Shown piece by piece: positions 4,076 to 9,691 of a stretch of DNA of 64,000 bases; the first letter of the stretch is position 1, and every line of letters begins with the position of its first letter. The notes below the pieces were generated by a model. It did not search any database. It saw only the letters and a program-made list of their open reading frames with translations, and had not been told where the DNA came from. The position numbers were made by a program, and so were the translations under genes. Source of the stretch: Gammaproteobacteria bacterium (GTDB taxonomy: Bacteria; Pseudomonadota; Gammaproteobacteria; Eutrophobiales; Eutrophobiaceae); the NCBI GenBank assembly GCA_004297165.1, contig SCUJ01000008.1:372001-436000 (forward strand), read 5' to 3'.

Positions 4076-5618
<1,543 letters not shown>

Positions 5619-5714: not shown

Positions 5715-6350
5715 CTAGAGCGATTGCTCTGTGCCCGTGCCTTCGAGCAATTTCGCGTTGCGTTCGGTTAGTTTCAGAATCAGGGAATCGATGCCGTTTT
5801 TGCGGATCTCGGACGCGAACGAACCGCGATAAGTGCCGATAAGACTGACGCCATCCACGGAGATATCGATCACCTTCCAGTCGCCACCGCTGACATGCAT
5901 GCGGTAATTTATGGGTATGGGATTCCCCGACCCTTTTCCCACCACCTGGGATTTGACCACGACCAGATTGGAATTCGGATCGCTTTCCATGGGCAAGAAT
6001 TCGATGGTCTCATCCGAGTATTCCATCAGGGCCTTGGCGTAGGTCCTGACCAGCATGGTCCGGAATTGGTCGATGAACTGCGCCTGACTCCCGGCATCGA
6101 TGGTATTCCACGCCTTGCCCAGCACCCAGCGGGACATGATGGGAAAATCGAAATGCGGGACAACCATCTCCTGGATGAGCTCGTAGAGTTTCTCCGGATG
6201 GGCGTTGAGATTCTCCTTCTCCTCAGCAAGCTTATCGATCACCTGGCTGGAGGCGGTGCGGACAATCTCTTCGGCCTCATTCGTGGCGGCGGATGCCGCC
6301 GACAAACTTATTAACAGCGTAAGGGCGCTTAATGCGACGCCTGCCTTCAT
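5715..6350 (-). CDS. mlaC: MlaC/Ttg2D (HpnM)-family periplasmic phospholipid-binding protein
   Basis: Periplasmic lipid carrier of the MlaC/Ttg2 family, about 211 aa. A cleavable signal peptide ends at SAASA. Family features follow: IQEMVVPHFDFPIMSRWVLGKAW, FRTMLVRTYAKAL and the C-terminal WKVIDISVDGVSLIGTYRGSFASEI. ATG 6350 is preferred because a GGAG lies ten bases upstream; the TTG at 6359 is too close to it. In E. coli MlaC shuttles phospholipid between outer-membrane MlaA and the inner-membrane MlaFEDB ABC complex. Here no mlaF, E, D or B is nearby, and the upstream gene on this strand is a large RND/MMPL transporter. The family also includes HpnM, which is paired with RND protein HpnN in hopanoid producers. 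Confidence 0.9.
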   Translation of the reverse strand: MKAGVALSALTLLISLSAASAATNEAEEIVRTASSQVIDKLAEEKENLNAHPEKLYELIQEMVVPHFDFPIMSRWVLGKAWNTIDAGSQAQFIDQFRTMLVRTYAKALMEYSDETIEFLPMESDPNSNLVVVKSQVVGKGSGNPIPINYRMHVSGGDWKVIDISVDGVSLIGTYRGSFASEIRKNGIDSLILKLTERNAKLLEGTGTEQSL

Positions 6351-6567
6351 GGTATTCAATCTCCGTTGGAAAAGTTACGGCCACACAGGCGGCATATTTT
6401 AGATGAGTTGGAGCGGCGGGAAAAAGCCTTTTTTCTCGTCCCGCGCAGGAATTCGGGACCTCGCTTCCGCAAACGAGGTTTTCGAGCCCGCGCGCAACTC
6501 CATTAGGCCTGGCGCAGTAGATTTTCAACAACCTGCCGAGGGGGCCGCTGACTGAATCGAAGCTTCC
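6351..6567 (-). other. Intergenic region between RND transporter gene and mlaC
   Basis: About 217 bp with no convincing gene. It should carry the mlaC promoter on the minus strand. An imperfect inverted repeat at 6416-6444 (GCGGG arm with A-rich spacer, TCCCGC arm) and a second at about 6465-6485 (CCTCG/CGAGG) could fold in the transcript. Neither is followed by a clear minus-strand T run, so I do not call a terminator. Confidence 0.4.
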
Positions 6568-9036
6568 CTAAAAGGGCCGCCACATCAGGATCAACTTGGG
6601 CAGGAGCGTCAGCGCCGCAATCAGCGCAATCAGCATGGCCAGCGCCGTCAGCAGTCCGAAGGAGATGGTCGGAATGAAATTCGACAATACCAGTATGGAA
6701 AAGCCGACAATAATGGTAATGACCGTATAAAAAATCCCGCGCCCGATGCTGGCATGACAATAATGCAGGGTCTTGACGTAATCCCGGCCATGACGATCGA
6801 ATTCCTGCCGGAACCTGTAGATGTAATGAATGCTGTTGTCCACGGCGATACCCAGCGTGATGGAGGAGATCATGATGGTCATCATGTCCAGCGGGATGCC
6901 GAGCAGCCCCATCAGCCCCAGGATGATCAGCGCCGACAGGATATTCGGGATGATGCCGATGATGGATAGCGACAACGAGCGGAACAACACCAGGAGCATC
7001 AGCCAGATGCCGAGAATGACGATCCCCAGCGTCATGATCTGGGACTGATACAGGCTTTGCAGCATGTTGTTGTAGAGCACCAGGAGCCCGCTGATCTGCA
7101 TGTTCTCCGGCGTCAGTCCGAATTTGCCTTCCAGGTCCGAACGGATCCGCTCCAGCAGTTCCTTGCGGCGGAGGTCCTTCAGCGAATCCTTGACCCGCAG
7201 GTTGATGCGGGCCTCGTCGTGTTCGATCGAGATGTAGGGCGTCAGCATCTCGGCGCGCAGCGCCTCGGGTAGCCGCTTGTTGATGACCGCGAGTTCGAAG
7301 GTGTCGAATTCCTGGCCATGGGCGAGGTCTTCCGCGATCCGGATGGTGGAGGCAAGCGAGCGCACCTTGCCCACGGCCGGCAGCCCCTCCAGATAATCGT
7401 GTATGCCCTTGATCAGATCGATCTTATCGGGCGAGAACCAGTAATCCGCCTTGTCCACCTCGATCTCGCCGAACAGCTCGTCGAACTCGTCCGTATCCTC
7501 CGCCGCCGGGTCTTCCGGGGCGGTCTCGGGAAATTTCACCACGATATCCAGCGAGGTCGTGCCGCCGAGTTTGTCATCGATAAGCTTCAAGCCCCGGTGG
7601 ATCTCGGTGTTCTCGCTGAAATAATTGACAAAACTGTTCTCCACCCGCAGCCGGCTGACGCCGATTGCCGTGATTATCGTCAGGACCACTGCGGCGGCGA
7701 TGATGACATTGCCGTGCCGTTCCGAGAACCGCGCCAGCATGGCGGTGAACGGCACCTTCGAATTTTCGGTATCGCTGCCGGCCGATTTGCCCAGCATCAC
7801 CAGCACCGCCGGGAAGAGCAGGAAGGAAAGGACCAGCGTCACGCCCAGACCCACGGTCATCATCCAGCCGAAATCGATCACGGGCTTGATATTGCTGGTC
7901 ACGAGCGAACCGAATCCCACCATCGTGGTGGTGGCGGTGTAAAAACACGGCCAGAACATCATGCGCACCGTCTGCGAAACCAGTTGTTTCTGATCGAGGT
8001 CCTGGAAATCCCAGCGCAACTGGCGGTACCTGACGGCCAGATGGATGTTCATCGAGATGGTGATGATCAACATCAGCGAGATGAAATTCGAGGAGATGAC
8101 CGTCACCCGCCAGCCCGTGAAGCCCAAGAGGCCAATCATGAACCACACCGCGAGCAGACAGGCGCCAAGCGGCAACACCACCCAGCGGACCTGCCGGAAG
8201 ATCAGGAACAGCATCGCCACCAGGAAGACAACGATGCAACTGCCGAAGACGACGAGGTCATTCTTGACGAAGGTGATCATGTCGTCGGCGATCATCGGGA
8301 CGCCCCCCAGATACAAGTCGCCTTCGCCCCGATAACGATCCATGACCGCGCGGATCTCCTTGATCGTTTCATGCATCGCCACGTCATAACGGTCCTTGGC
8401 GGCGTCATAGGCGGCAGTGACCCGCTCCAGTTCCAGTTTGGCCTCGTCAGTCAGTCCGCTCTCGTATTTGTTCAGTATCAGTTCGTTCCGCCGCCGGGAG
8501 AGATCCTGATATTCCGGATCGGTCTTCAGGGTCAGCATCATCGCCGTGGTGGCGCCGTCCTTGCTGACGATCAATTCGTTGAATAACGGGCTGTTGAGCA
8601 ACTCCTCTTTCGCCTTGGCGAGGTCGATGTCGGCGGCGGTCAACGTCCGATAATTTTTCGCGACATCGGAGAGCTTGCCTTCCGCCTGTTTCAACAGCGG
8701 CACATCGACCAATGACGTCACGGAATCGATCATGCCGACCTTCCGGAAATCGTCCCGCATGGCGGCGATGGTGGCGCGGGCGTGCTCCGAGAACAGATCG
8801 TCCTTCGGCGCAAAAGCGACGAACAGGAATTCACTGCTCCCATAGCGGTTGGTCATGTCCCGGTACTGTCGCAGGTCCTTGTCGTTCTCGAGCAGCAGGG
8901 AATCCGCCGAGGCATCCAGGTCGAAATCCCTGGCATAGAAGCTGAAATACAGGATCACTCCGCCGAGCAGCAGCAACACAAGGACGGGGCGATCAAGCAC
9001 CAGCCAATCATAAAACCGGGAGAGTCTTGGAAACAT
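6568..9036 (-). CDS. RND superfamily (MMPL/HpnN-like) lipid transporter
   Basis: Inner-membrane RND/MMPL exporter of about 822 aa with two repeats. Each repeat has one N-terminal helix, a periplasmic porter domain and five further helices. The first helix is DRPVLVLLLLGGVILYFSFYA; helix clusters lie at about residues 235-400 and 675-815. The periplasmic start has the family signature DASADSLLLENDKDLRQY. The second repeat carries SITLGIAVDNSIHYIYRFR in the proton-relay region. The second porter domain has an acidic low-complexity insertion (EDPAAEDTDEFDELFGEIE). Start set at ATG 9036 because upstream in-frame sequence overlaps purN. It lies 40 bp downstream of purN and 217 bp upstream of mlaC. 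Hydrophobic lipid transport is inferred from the family and the mlaC neighbour; substrate unknown. Confidence 0.88.
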   Translation of the reverse strand: MFPRLSRFYDWLVLDRPVLVLLLLGGVILYFSFYARDFDLDASADSLLLENDKDLRQYRDMTNRYGSSEFLFVAFAPKDDLFSEHARATIAAMRDDFRKVGMIDSVTSLVDVPLLKQAEGKLSDVAKNYRTLTAADIDLAKAKEELLNSPLFNELIVSKDGATTAMMLTLKTDPEYQDLSRRRNELILNKYESGLTDEAKLELERVTAAYDAAKDRYDVAMHETIKEIRAVMDRYRGEGDLYLGGVPMIADDMITFVKNDLVVFGSCIVVFLVAMLFLIFRQVRWVVLPLGACLLAVWFMIGLLGFTGWRVTVISSNFISLMLIITISMNIHLAVRYRQLRWDFQDLDQKQLVSQTVRMMFWPCFYTATTTMVGFGSLVTSNIKPVIDFGWMMTVGLGVTLVLSFLLFPAVLVMLGKSAGSDTENSKVPFTAMLARFSERHGNVIIAAAVVLTIITAIGVSRLRVENSFVNYFSENTEIHRGLKLIDDKLGGTTSLDIVVKFPETAPEDPAAEDTDEFDELFGEIEVDKADYWFSPDKIDLIKGIHDYLEGLPAVGKVRSLASTIRIAEDLAHGQEFDTFELAVINKRLPEALRAEMLTPYISIEHDEARINLRVKDSLKDLRRKELLERIRSDLEGKFGLTPENMQISGLLVLYNNMLQSLYQSQIMTLGIVILGIWLMLLVLFRSLSLSIIGIIPNILSALIILGLMGLLGIPLDMMTIMISSITLGIAVDNSIHYIYRFRQEFDRHGRDYVKTLHYCHASIGRGIFYTVITIIVGFSILVLSNFIPTISFGLLTALAMLIALIAALTLLPKLILMWRPF

Positions 9037-9076: not shown

Positions 9077-9691
9077 TCACCGCATATAAACTTCGAGCCT
9101 GAGGTCGCCGCTGATAATCCGGCTGATGGTATCCACGTACAATTCATGTTCCACCGGCAGGACCCGCTCCGCCAGCGTCTCCGGCGTGTCCTGCTCCGCC
9201 ACCCGCACCTTGCGCTGGGCGAGGATGGGGCCGGTATCGTAATCCCCGGCGACCAGGTGAATCGTCGCGCCGCTTTCCTTTTCCCCGGCGGCGATGACCG
9301 CCTCATGCACATGCATGCCGTACATGCCCTTGCCGCCGAAGCGCGGCAACAGGGAGGGATGGACATTGAGGATCCGGCCGCGGTAGGTGTCGAGCAGGCA
9401 GGGCCCGATCTTCTTCATATAACCGGCGAGGATCACCAGCTCCACTTCGTGATCCAGCAGGGTATTGGTAATCAGGCGATCGAGTTCCTCCGGATCAGTG
9501 TAAGCGGCGCTGCCGAGATGATAGGCGGGAATGCCTTCTTCCACCGCGCGTTGCAGGGCCCTGGCGGCGCTGTTGTTCGATATCACGACCGCCGGATTCG
9601 CGGCCAGGCGTCCGGATTTGCAGGCATCGATGATCGCCTGCATGTTCGTTCCGCGGAAAGAGGCCAGGAAGCCCAGATTTATTTTTTTCAT
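9077..9691 (-). CDS. purN: Phosphoribosylglycinamide formyltransferase (folate-dependent)
   Basis: Transfers a formyl group from 10-formyl-tetrahydrofolate to GAR in de novo purine synthesis; 204 aa, family-typical. Visible: N-terminal GFLASFRGTNMQAII (phosphate-binding loop), LAGYMKKIGP, NVHPSLLPRFGGKG with the catalytic Asn/His pair, and GDYDTGPILAQ with the catalytic Asp. The loop reads SFRGTN instead of the E. coli SGNGSN form, a common variant. Located 8 bp after pdxB, with which it is probably co-transcribed. Purine and pyridoxal genes are not functionally linked in an obvious way here. Confidence 0.95.
   Translation of the reverse strand: MKKINLGFLASFRGTNMQAIIDACKSGRLAANPAVVISNNSAARALQRAVEEGIPAYHLGSAAYTDPEELDRLITNTLLDHEVELVILAGYMKKIGPCLLDTYRGRILNVHPSLLPRFGGKGMYGMHVHEAVIAAGEKESGATIHLVAGDYDTGPILAQRKVRVAEQDTPETLAERVLPVEHELYVDTISRIISGDLRLEVYMR

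Follow-up and report, generated by a model that had tools for sequence, protein, structure and literature searches.

What moves lipids through the periplasmic carrier MlaC where the ABC transporter genes expected at its locus are missing and an RND transporter gene stands in their position? We address this question with a 64,000-nucleotide stretch of DNA (the window; positions 372,001 to 436,000 of contig SCUJ01000008.1, assembly GCA_004297165.1) from a gammaproteobacterium of the family Eutrophobiaceae. In other Gammaproteobacteria, the gene order mlaFEDCB-ibaG-murA is well known, and on that ground we presume it to be the ancestral state. On the minus strand of the window, the order is purN, RND, mlaC, ibaG, murA, hisG and hisD (the last two recognised by eye). 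No mlaF, mlaE, mlaD or mlaB was found between purN and murA, a statement that for MlaF and MlaB, members of large families not searched genome-wide, concerns this locus. In our view the RND protein probably serves as the inner-membrane engine for lipid shuttling by MlaC and MlaA and stands in for the ABC complex MlaFEDB at this locus; lipid traffic between the inner and outer membranes of this bacterium and its relatives thus probably has a different engine. The features concerned are as follows.

6568..9036, minus strand (ATG at 9036): RND/MMPL transporter of 822 amino acids, putative inner-membrane partner of MlaC (PF03176, 6e-29)
5715..6350, minus strand: MlaC, periplasmic lipid carrier with signal peptide (PF05494, 1.4e-54)
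6351..6567, minus strand: intergenic gap between the RND gene and mlaC (sequence scan)
5340..5618, minus strand: ibaG/BolA-family gene, marker of the mla-murA neighbourhood (PF01722, 1.1e-18)
4076..5347, minus strand: murA, marker of the mla-murA neighbourhood (TIGR01072, 1.7e-178)
9077..9691, minus strand: purN, upstream flank of the RND gene (TIGR00639)

The range 5715-9036 comprises exactly the RND gene and mlaC. We placed the start of mlaC at the ATG at 6350; the TTG at 6359, from which the open reading frame had been listed, is an alternative. The matches to PF05494, PF01722 and TIGR01072 bear out the preliminary description of this DNA, in which the order RND-mlaC-ibaG-murA was taken to keep the mla neighbourhood. 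Scanning of the gap 6351..6567 revealed no sigma-70-like promoter and a single weak terminator-like hairpin (6393-6380), of a kind no more frequent than in shuffled sequences; no promoter or terminator signal rose above the shuffles.

The genome was searched whole (3.53 Mb, 13 contigs, 98.95% complete). With PF02405 we obtained no match for MlaE, and the same search was positive in an E. coli control. A search with PF02470 found no single-MCE MlaD in this genome; its sole MCE protein is a PqiB-like protein of 550 amino acids with three MCE domains, encoded next to a gene resembling pqiA (by eye). The absence of mlaF, mlaE, mlaD and mlaB stated in the preliminary description therefore holds at the locus, and for MlaE and MlaD throughout the genome. 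Since both of these are missing, there is no complete mlaFEDB elsewhere that could serve MlaC, a finding that would have spoken against the earlier proposal. Two copies each of MlaC and MlaA are present. One mlaA lies in a hopanoid gene cluster on contig C9; the other, an orphan on C13, encodes the obvious candidate for the outer-membrane partner of the window pair. On C12 (L024:2542-9742), genes for PqiA-like and PqiB-like proteins and a 347-amino-acid protein are followed by a gene for an HAE3-like RND protein with a C-terminal cyclic-nucleotide-binding-like domain, i.e., an RND gene beside an MCE operon.

Comparison of murA loci within the family indicated an exchange between the RND gene and mlaFED. 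In genomes G017 and G025 (loci L167 and L168), purN and small other genes are followed by mlaF-mlaE-mlaD-mlaC-mlaB-ibaG-murA (mlaF and mlaB recognised by eye), whereas in G001, G016 and the window, purN and at most one other gene are followed by RND-mlaC-ibaG-murA. The RND orthologue was found in none of the three sister genomes with mlaFED (G014, G017 and G025). In a tree of 91 MlaC rows, of which several deep forks are weak, the murA-locus MlaCs of the family lie close together regardless of the genes upstream: RND for 34 of them, mlaFED for three (the same sister genomes) and neither for four. Another four rows with neither upstream belong to genomes outside the family. L231, an RND-mlaC-murA row from another group, branches apart. 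This is most simply read as replacement of the ABC genes by the RND gene, with MlaC retained.

To follow the pair across the family, 53 genomes of 18 genera were searched for the RND orthologue, MlaC and MlaE. The RND orthologue (55-71% identity) was present in 44 genomes representing 14 genera, three of the orthologues being interrupted by contig ends. Each of the 44 carries mlaC as the immediate downstream neighbour of the RND gene, on the same strand (30/30 loci and 9/9 loci, plus G009, G018, G034, G035 and G036 by coordinates), so the pairing goes far beyond chance. MlaE was missing from 15 family genomes, 14 of which carry the RND gene; the exception, G031, is 63% complete. Eight of the nine genomes without the RND gene have MlaE. 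A paralogous RND clade (43-45% identity) lies downstream of mlaC, in reverse order, at seven family loci (L161-L166 and L173). Two further arrangements were noted in the family: a tandem pair of RND genes upstream of mlaC in G010 (L172:4415-9456), and a third mla locus in which mlaC is on the opposite strand to mlaF-mlaE-mlaD and faces it (L162:14309-16987 and L175:3978-6765).

In the wider class, the RND protein was detected at E <= 1e-100 in 63 of 369 genomes. We examined 60 RND places outside the family together with their flanks (omitting two listed places, that in G327 and the second of G390) and checked a sample of neighbour identities by Pfam. At 11 of the 60, distributed over seven group codes, mlaC and/or mlaA was adjacent: as a closely packed mlaA-RND-mlaC trio in a single group (three genomes: L276, L279 and L282), as murA, RND, mlaC and mlaA adjoining on alternating strands in three genomes of another (L239, L240 and L243), and singly as RND-mlaC-murA (L256), RND-mlaC (L272), mlaC-RND (L289), RND-mlaA (L262) and mlaA-RND (L287). 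At a guessed chance of 0.5% per place, the binomial probability of 11/60 is ~1e-14, a value overstated owing to relatedness. The preliminary description had suggested an RND protein in the mla position as the possible driver of lipid traffic through MlaC. As a genomic association, this is strongly supported because of the RND/mlaFED exchange and the recurrent RND-mlaC-mlaA clusters in other families. Separately, in L273, L275 and L294 a BolA/IbaG-like gene lies closely upstream of the RND gene with no adjacent mlaC. The RND protein and gene order of L076, a record titled as a Klebsiella pneumoniae metagenome-assembled genome, match those of uncultured gammaproteobacterial genomes, and the record is probably mislabelled.

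A scan of named records for the RND protein returned 53 loci, 36 of them in single-cell genomes of Alphaproteobacteria. One of these is named Pelagibacteraceae; the remainder are probably SAR11 as well, partly by their common gene order. In a single-sequence search, no MlaC was detected next to the RND gene at any of the 53 loci. Fifty of the genomes were searched for Mla proteins, including 33 of SAR11 type, all 33 found through the RND protein. MlaE was found in 0/33 and MlaC in 27/33 of the SAR11-type genomes, a difference that is hard to explain by gaps in incomplete single-cell genomes; mlaA is directly upstream of mlaC at 20/20 SAR11-type loci shown. Among the other 17 genomes, MlaE was found in 15 and MlaC in 11; two of them, Pleionea mediterranea (three copies of MlaC) and UBA7821, combine MlaC and the RND protein with no MlaE found. 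In Pleionea and relatives (L181-L185), a tandem mlaC pair lies between tus-like sulfur-relay genes and a seryl-tRNA-synthetase-like gene (by eye), and the RND gene is located elsewhere.

The window RND protein matches PF03176 (MMPL) above the gathering score, with 101 bits in two stretches. Against NCBIfam it is HAE3-like but below every cut-off, including those of HpnN (134.8 against 751.85 for TIGR03480; 78.1 against 1100 for NF052374) and BstA (NF045600; 37.4 against 1400). Its ACR_tran score of 20.9 is below the gathering score of 28, and we rejected a drug exporter of the HAE-1 (AcrB) type on this ground. Its AlphaFold2 model (33-sequence alignment) has a pLDDT of 84.9 and a pTM of 0.81, and the best Foldseek matches are MmpL4/5, HpnN and MmpL3, with E-values of about 1e-24 to 1e-19. 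Grouping with drug exporters, which the preliminary description would have counted against its proposal, was thus seen neither by sequence nor among the best structural matches. Domains and fold point to the MMPL/HAE-3 lipid branch, with lipid as the putative cargo. Over 143 members of the RND family, D260 and N317 are invariant, H332 and H737 are each His in 142, and residue 733, in transmembrane helix 10 (TM10), is Asp in 136 and Glu in five. The Asp in TM4 of the genome's own HpnN is replaced by Ser328, and Ser occurs at this position in 128 of the 143. These residues suggest that the window RND protein is an active, proton-coupled transporter.

MlaC of the window is, by its sequence, a normal, intact and conserved family member; among its relatives in the PDB are 2QGU (1.4e-29) and E. 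coli MlaC (8OJ4, 3.4e-18). It scored higher with the HpnM model TIGR03481 (114.4 bits, cut-off 160.1) than with the MlaC model PRK15117 (76 bits), below both cut-offs. MlaFED-partnered orthologues are equally biased (99 and 107 bits for HpnM versus 64 and 86 for MlaC), and the bias in the window protein is therefore no sign of hopanoids.

From these data we infer how the shuttle may work. MlaA would exchange lipid with the outer membrane and MlaC would ferry it across the periplasm, docking on the periplasmic domains of the RND protein. Proton flow via TM4/TM10 (H332, D733 and H737), rather than ATP, would power the step that delivers lipid to the inner membrane or takes it from there. The cargo would be phospholipid. 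As to net direction, we lean towards retrieval of phospholipid into the inner membrane, in the manner of Mla, rather than export of the HpnN type. For a broader proposal we see an even chance: that an ATP-independent "RND-Mla" is widespread, with the proton motive force, via the RND protein, driving MlaC/MlaA phospholipid traffic and replacing MlaFEDB, including in SAR11-type bacteria without a found MlaE.

Several observations weigh against an RND engine for MlaC. In the family, 30 of the 44 RND-bearing genomes keep MlaE elsewhere; because these genomes hold both, the presence of the RND protein and that of MlaE are not significantly anticorrelated over the 53 genomes (Fisher p = 0.42). The phrase "in place of MlaFEDB" in the preliminary description thus applies strictly to 14 of the 44 and not to the other 30; unlike a genome-wide anticorrelation, the exchange at the murA locus is clear-cut. 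The gap between the RND gene and mlaC ranges from 52 to 386 bp (30 loci), so co-transcription is not assured. Outside the family, 49 of the 60 RND places had neither mlaC nor mlaA within the fetched flanks, and in SAR11-type genomes the RND gene is located away from mlaA-mlaC. Six RND-bearing genomes (Acidobacteria, Planctomycetota, Hydrogenedentota and similar) have MlaE without MlaC; the RND protein can therefore work without MlaC, and its family either predates the pairing or is independent of it. The RND members from MlaC-less genomes that were included in a FastTree tree are basal there. As for the proteins, the MlaC residues contacting MlaD, as named in PMC11289387, are for the most part shared by MlaCs with an RND partner and those with MlaFED. 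The one suggestive position, that of E. coli Q80, is Gln in 2/3 MlaFED-partnered murA-locus MlaCs and 0/35 RND-partnered ones, a comparison to which little weight can be given with three sequences on one side. In VIA-align 2, SecDF and AcrB-type pumps rank level with MmpL. Since these pumps receive similar Z scores, it is sequence and Foldseek that place the protein in the lipid branch; HpnN was not among the 50 rows shown, which has no bearing on the fold.

One other explanation is a second export route for hopanoids or another triterpenoid, with the RND protein as an HpnN-like pump and MlaC as an HpnM-like carrier. The genome does encode a squalene-hopene cyclase (SHC) and, as the search proposed in the preliminary description revealed, hpn genes; in the PDB, the sequence that best matches the RND profile is that of HpnN, and the HpnM-leaning score of the window MlaC would fit. 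However, a hopanoid RND protein and an MlaC-like carrier are already accounted for elsewhere. A genuine HpnN (912 bits, cut-off 752) is encoded on C1 beside a squalene-synthase-like gene, and a genuine HpnM (197 bits, cut-off 160) on C9 in the cluster hpnH-hpnB-hpnM-mlaA (L022:10281-14188). HpnH, HpnB, HpnM and HpnN are above NCBIfam cut-offs (HpnN via TIGR03480, not the stricter NF052374); the squalene-synthase-like protein and the C9 MlaA are below them, the latter being above the Pfam cut-off. The window RND protein and MlaC are therefore a second set. The RND protein, far under the HpnN cut-offs, cannot be equated with HpnN itself, lacks the TM4 Asp of HpnN, and belongs to a family also found in SAR11, which to our knowledge is not known to make hopanoids. 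Given the separate HpnN/HpnM and the same HpnM bias in MlaFED-partnered orthologues, we rejected the hopanoid pair as the principal interpretation and regard such a route as unlikely. The mlaA directly after hpnM on C9 appears to encode a paralogue linked with hopanoid transport.

An unrelated envelope RND gene might also have landed beside mlaC by chance after loss of mlaFED, leaving MlaC with another partner or as a remnant. In four family genomes (L083, L088, L089 and L107), the mlaC at murA indeed has no RND gene and no mlaFED preceding it, and outside the family the majority of RND members have no mla gene as a neighbour. A chance neighbour is nevertheless improbable in view of the unbroken pairing over 14 genera, the second arrangement with a paralogous RND protein, the mlaA-RND-mlaC clusters of other families, and an MlaC that is intact and conserved. 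Finally, the RND protein could be a lipid-sensing or regulatory protein (Patched-like, of the sterol-sensing type) that tunes rather than powers MlaC-dependent traffic. Weak matches of the window protein and some relatives to Patched or Sterol-sensing models, together with the replaced TM4 Asp, are in line with such a role; but 141 of 143 members retain an acidic side chain at position 733, which, with the nearly invariant H737 and H332, resembles a working proton path, and no MlaE or MlaD was found in the genome to supply the power. We consider a regulatory role very improbable. The RND protein as the engine of the MlaC/MlaA shuttle is the explanation we retain.

How phospholipids move between the membranes, and the direction of Mla, are still debated. 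If our proposal is true, nature has swapped an ATP engine for a proton engine while keeping the carrier, which separates the roles of MlaC/MlaA from those of MlaFEDB. It would offer bacteria that lack MlaFEDB, SAR11-type ones of the ocean among them, a route to lipid asymmetry, and the energetics and direction of Mla would become testable by engine swapping. RND proteins with carriers (HpnN/HpnM and BstABC) and MlaC/MlaA (in Mla) are already known. Their combination at the mla locus, as an RND-MlaC replacement, and its occurrence without MlaE in SAR11-type genomes were not found in the full-text literature searched, whose coverage excludes bioRxiv preprints and most subscription papers.

Compared with canonical Mla (MlaFEDB-MlaC-MlaA), the window genome has the same MlaC, MlaA and mlaC-ibaG-murA position, and the job at the outer membrane is likely the same; it differs in having an RND protein in place of the MlaE permease and the MCE protein MlaD. 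Hopanoid transport by HpnN/HpnM likewise pairs an RND protein of related fold with a carrier of the MlaC superfamily, but, apart from the scores and the TM4 Asp, the window RND gene has purN, mlaC, ibaG and murA as neighbours instead of a hopanoid cluster. Sterol transport by BstABC (PMC10942540) likewise makes a lipid route out of an RND protein, a carrier in the periplasm and a partner at the outer membrane; BstB, however, is described there as a phosphonate-type binding protein, not MlaC, and the window RND protein is remote from BstA in score. The chimeric Mla-Pqi system (Mpc) of Brucella, described in PMC12436622, is another mix-and-match variant of Mla, one that is MCE-based and has no MlaC, whereas the window genome keeps MlaC and lacks a single-MCE MlaD. 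The minimal MlaEFD of Veillonella, according to PMC10665443, is a cut-down Mla that forms the mirror image: it keeps MlaEFD without MlaA and MlaC, and the window genome keeps MlaA and MlaC without MlaE and MlaD.

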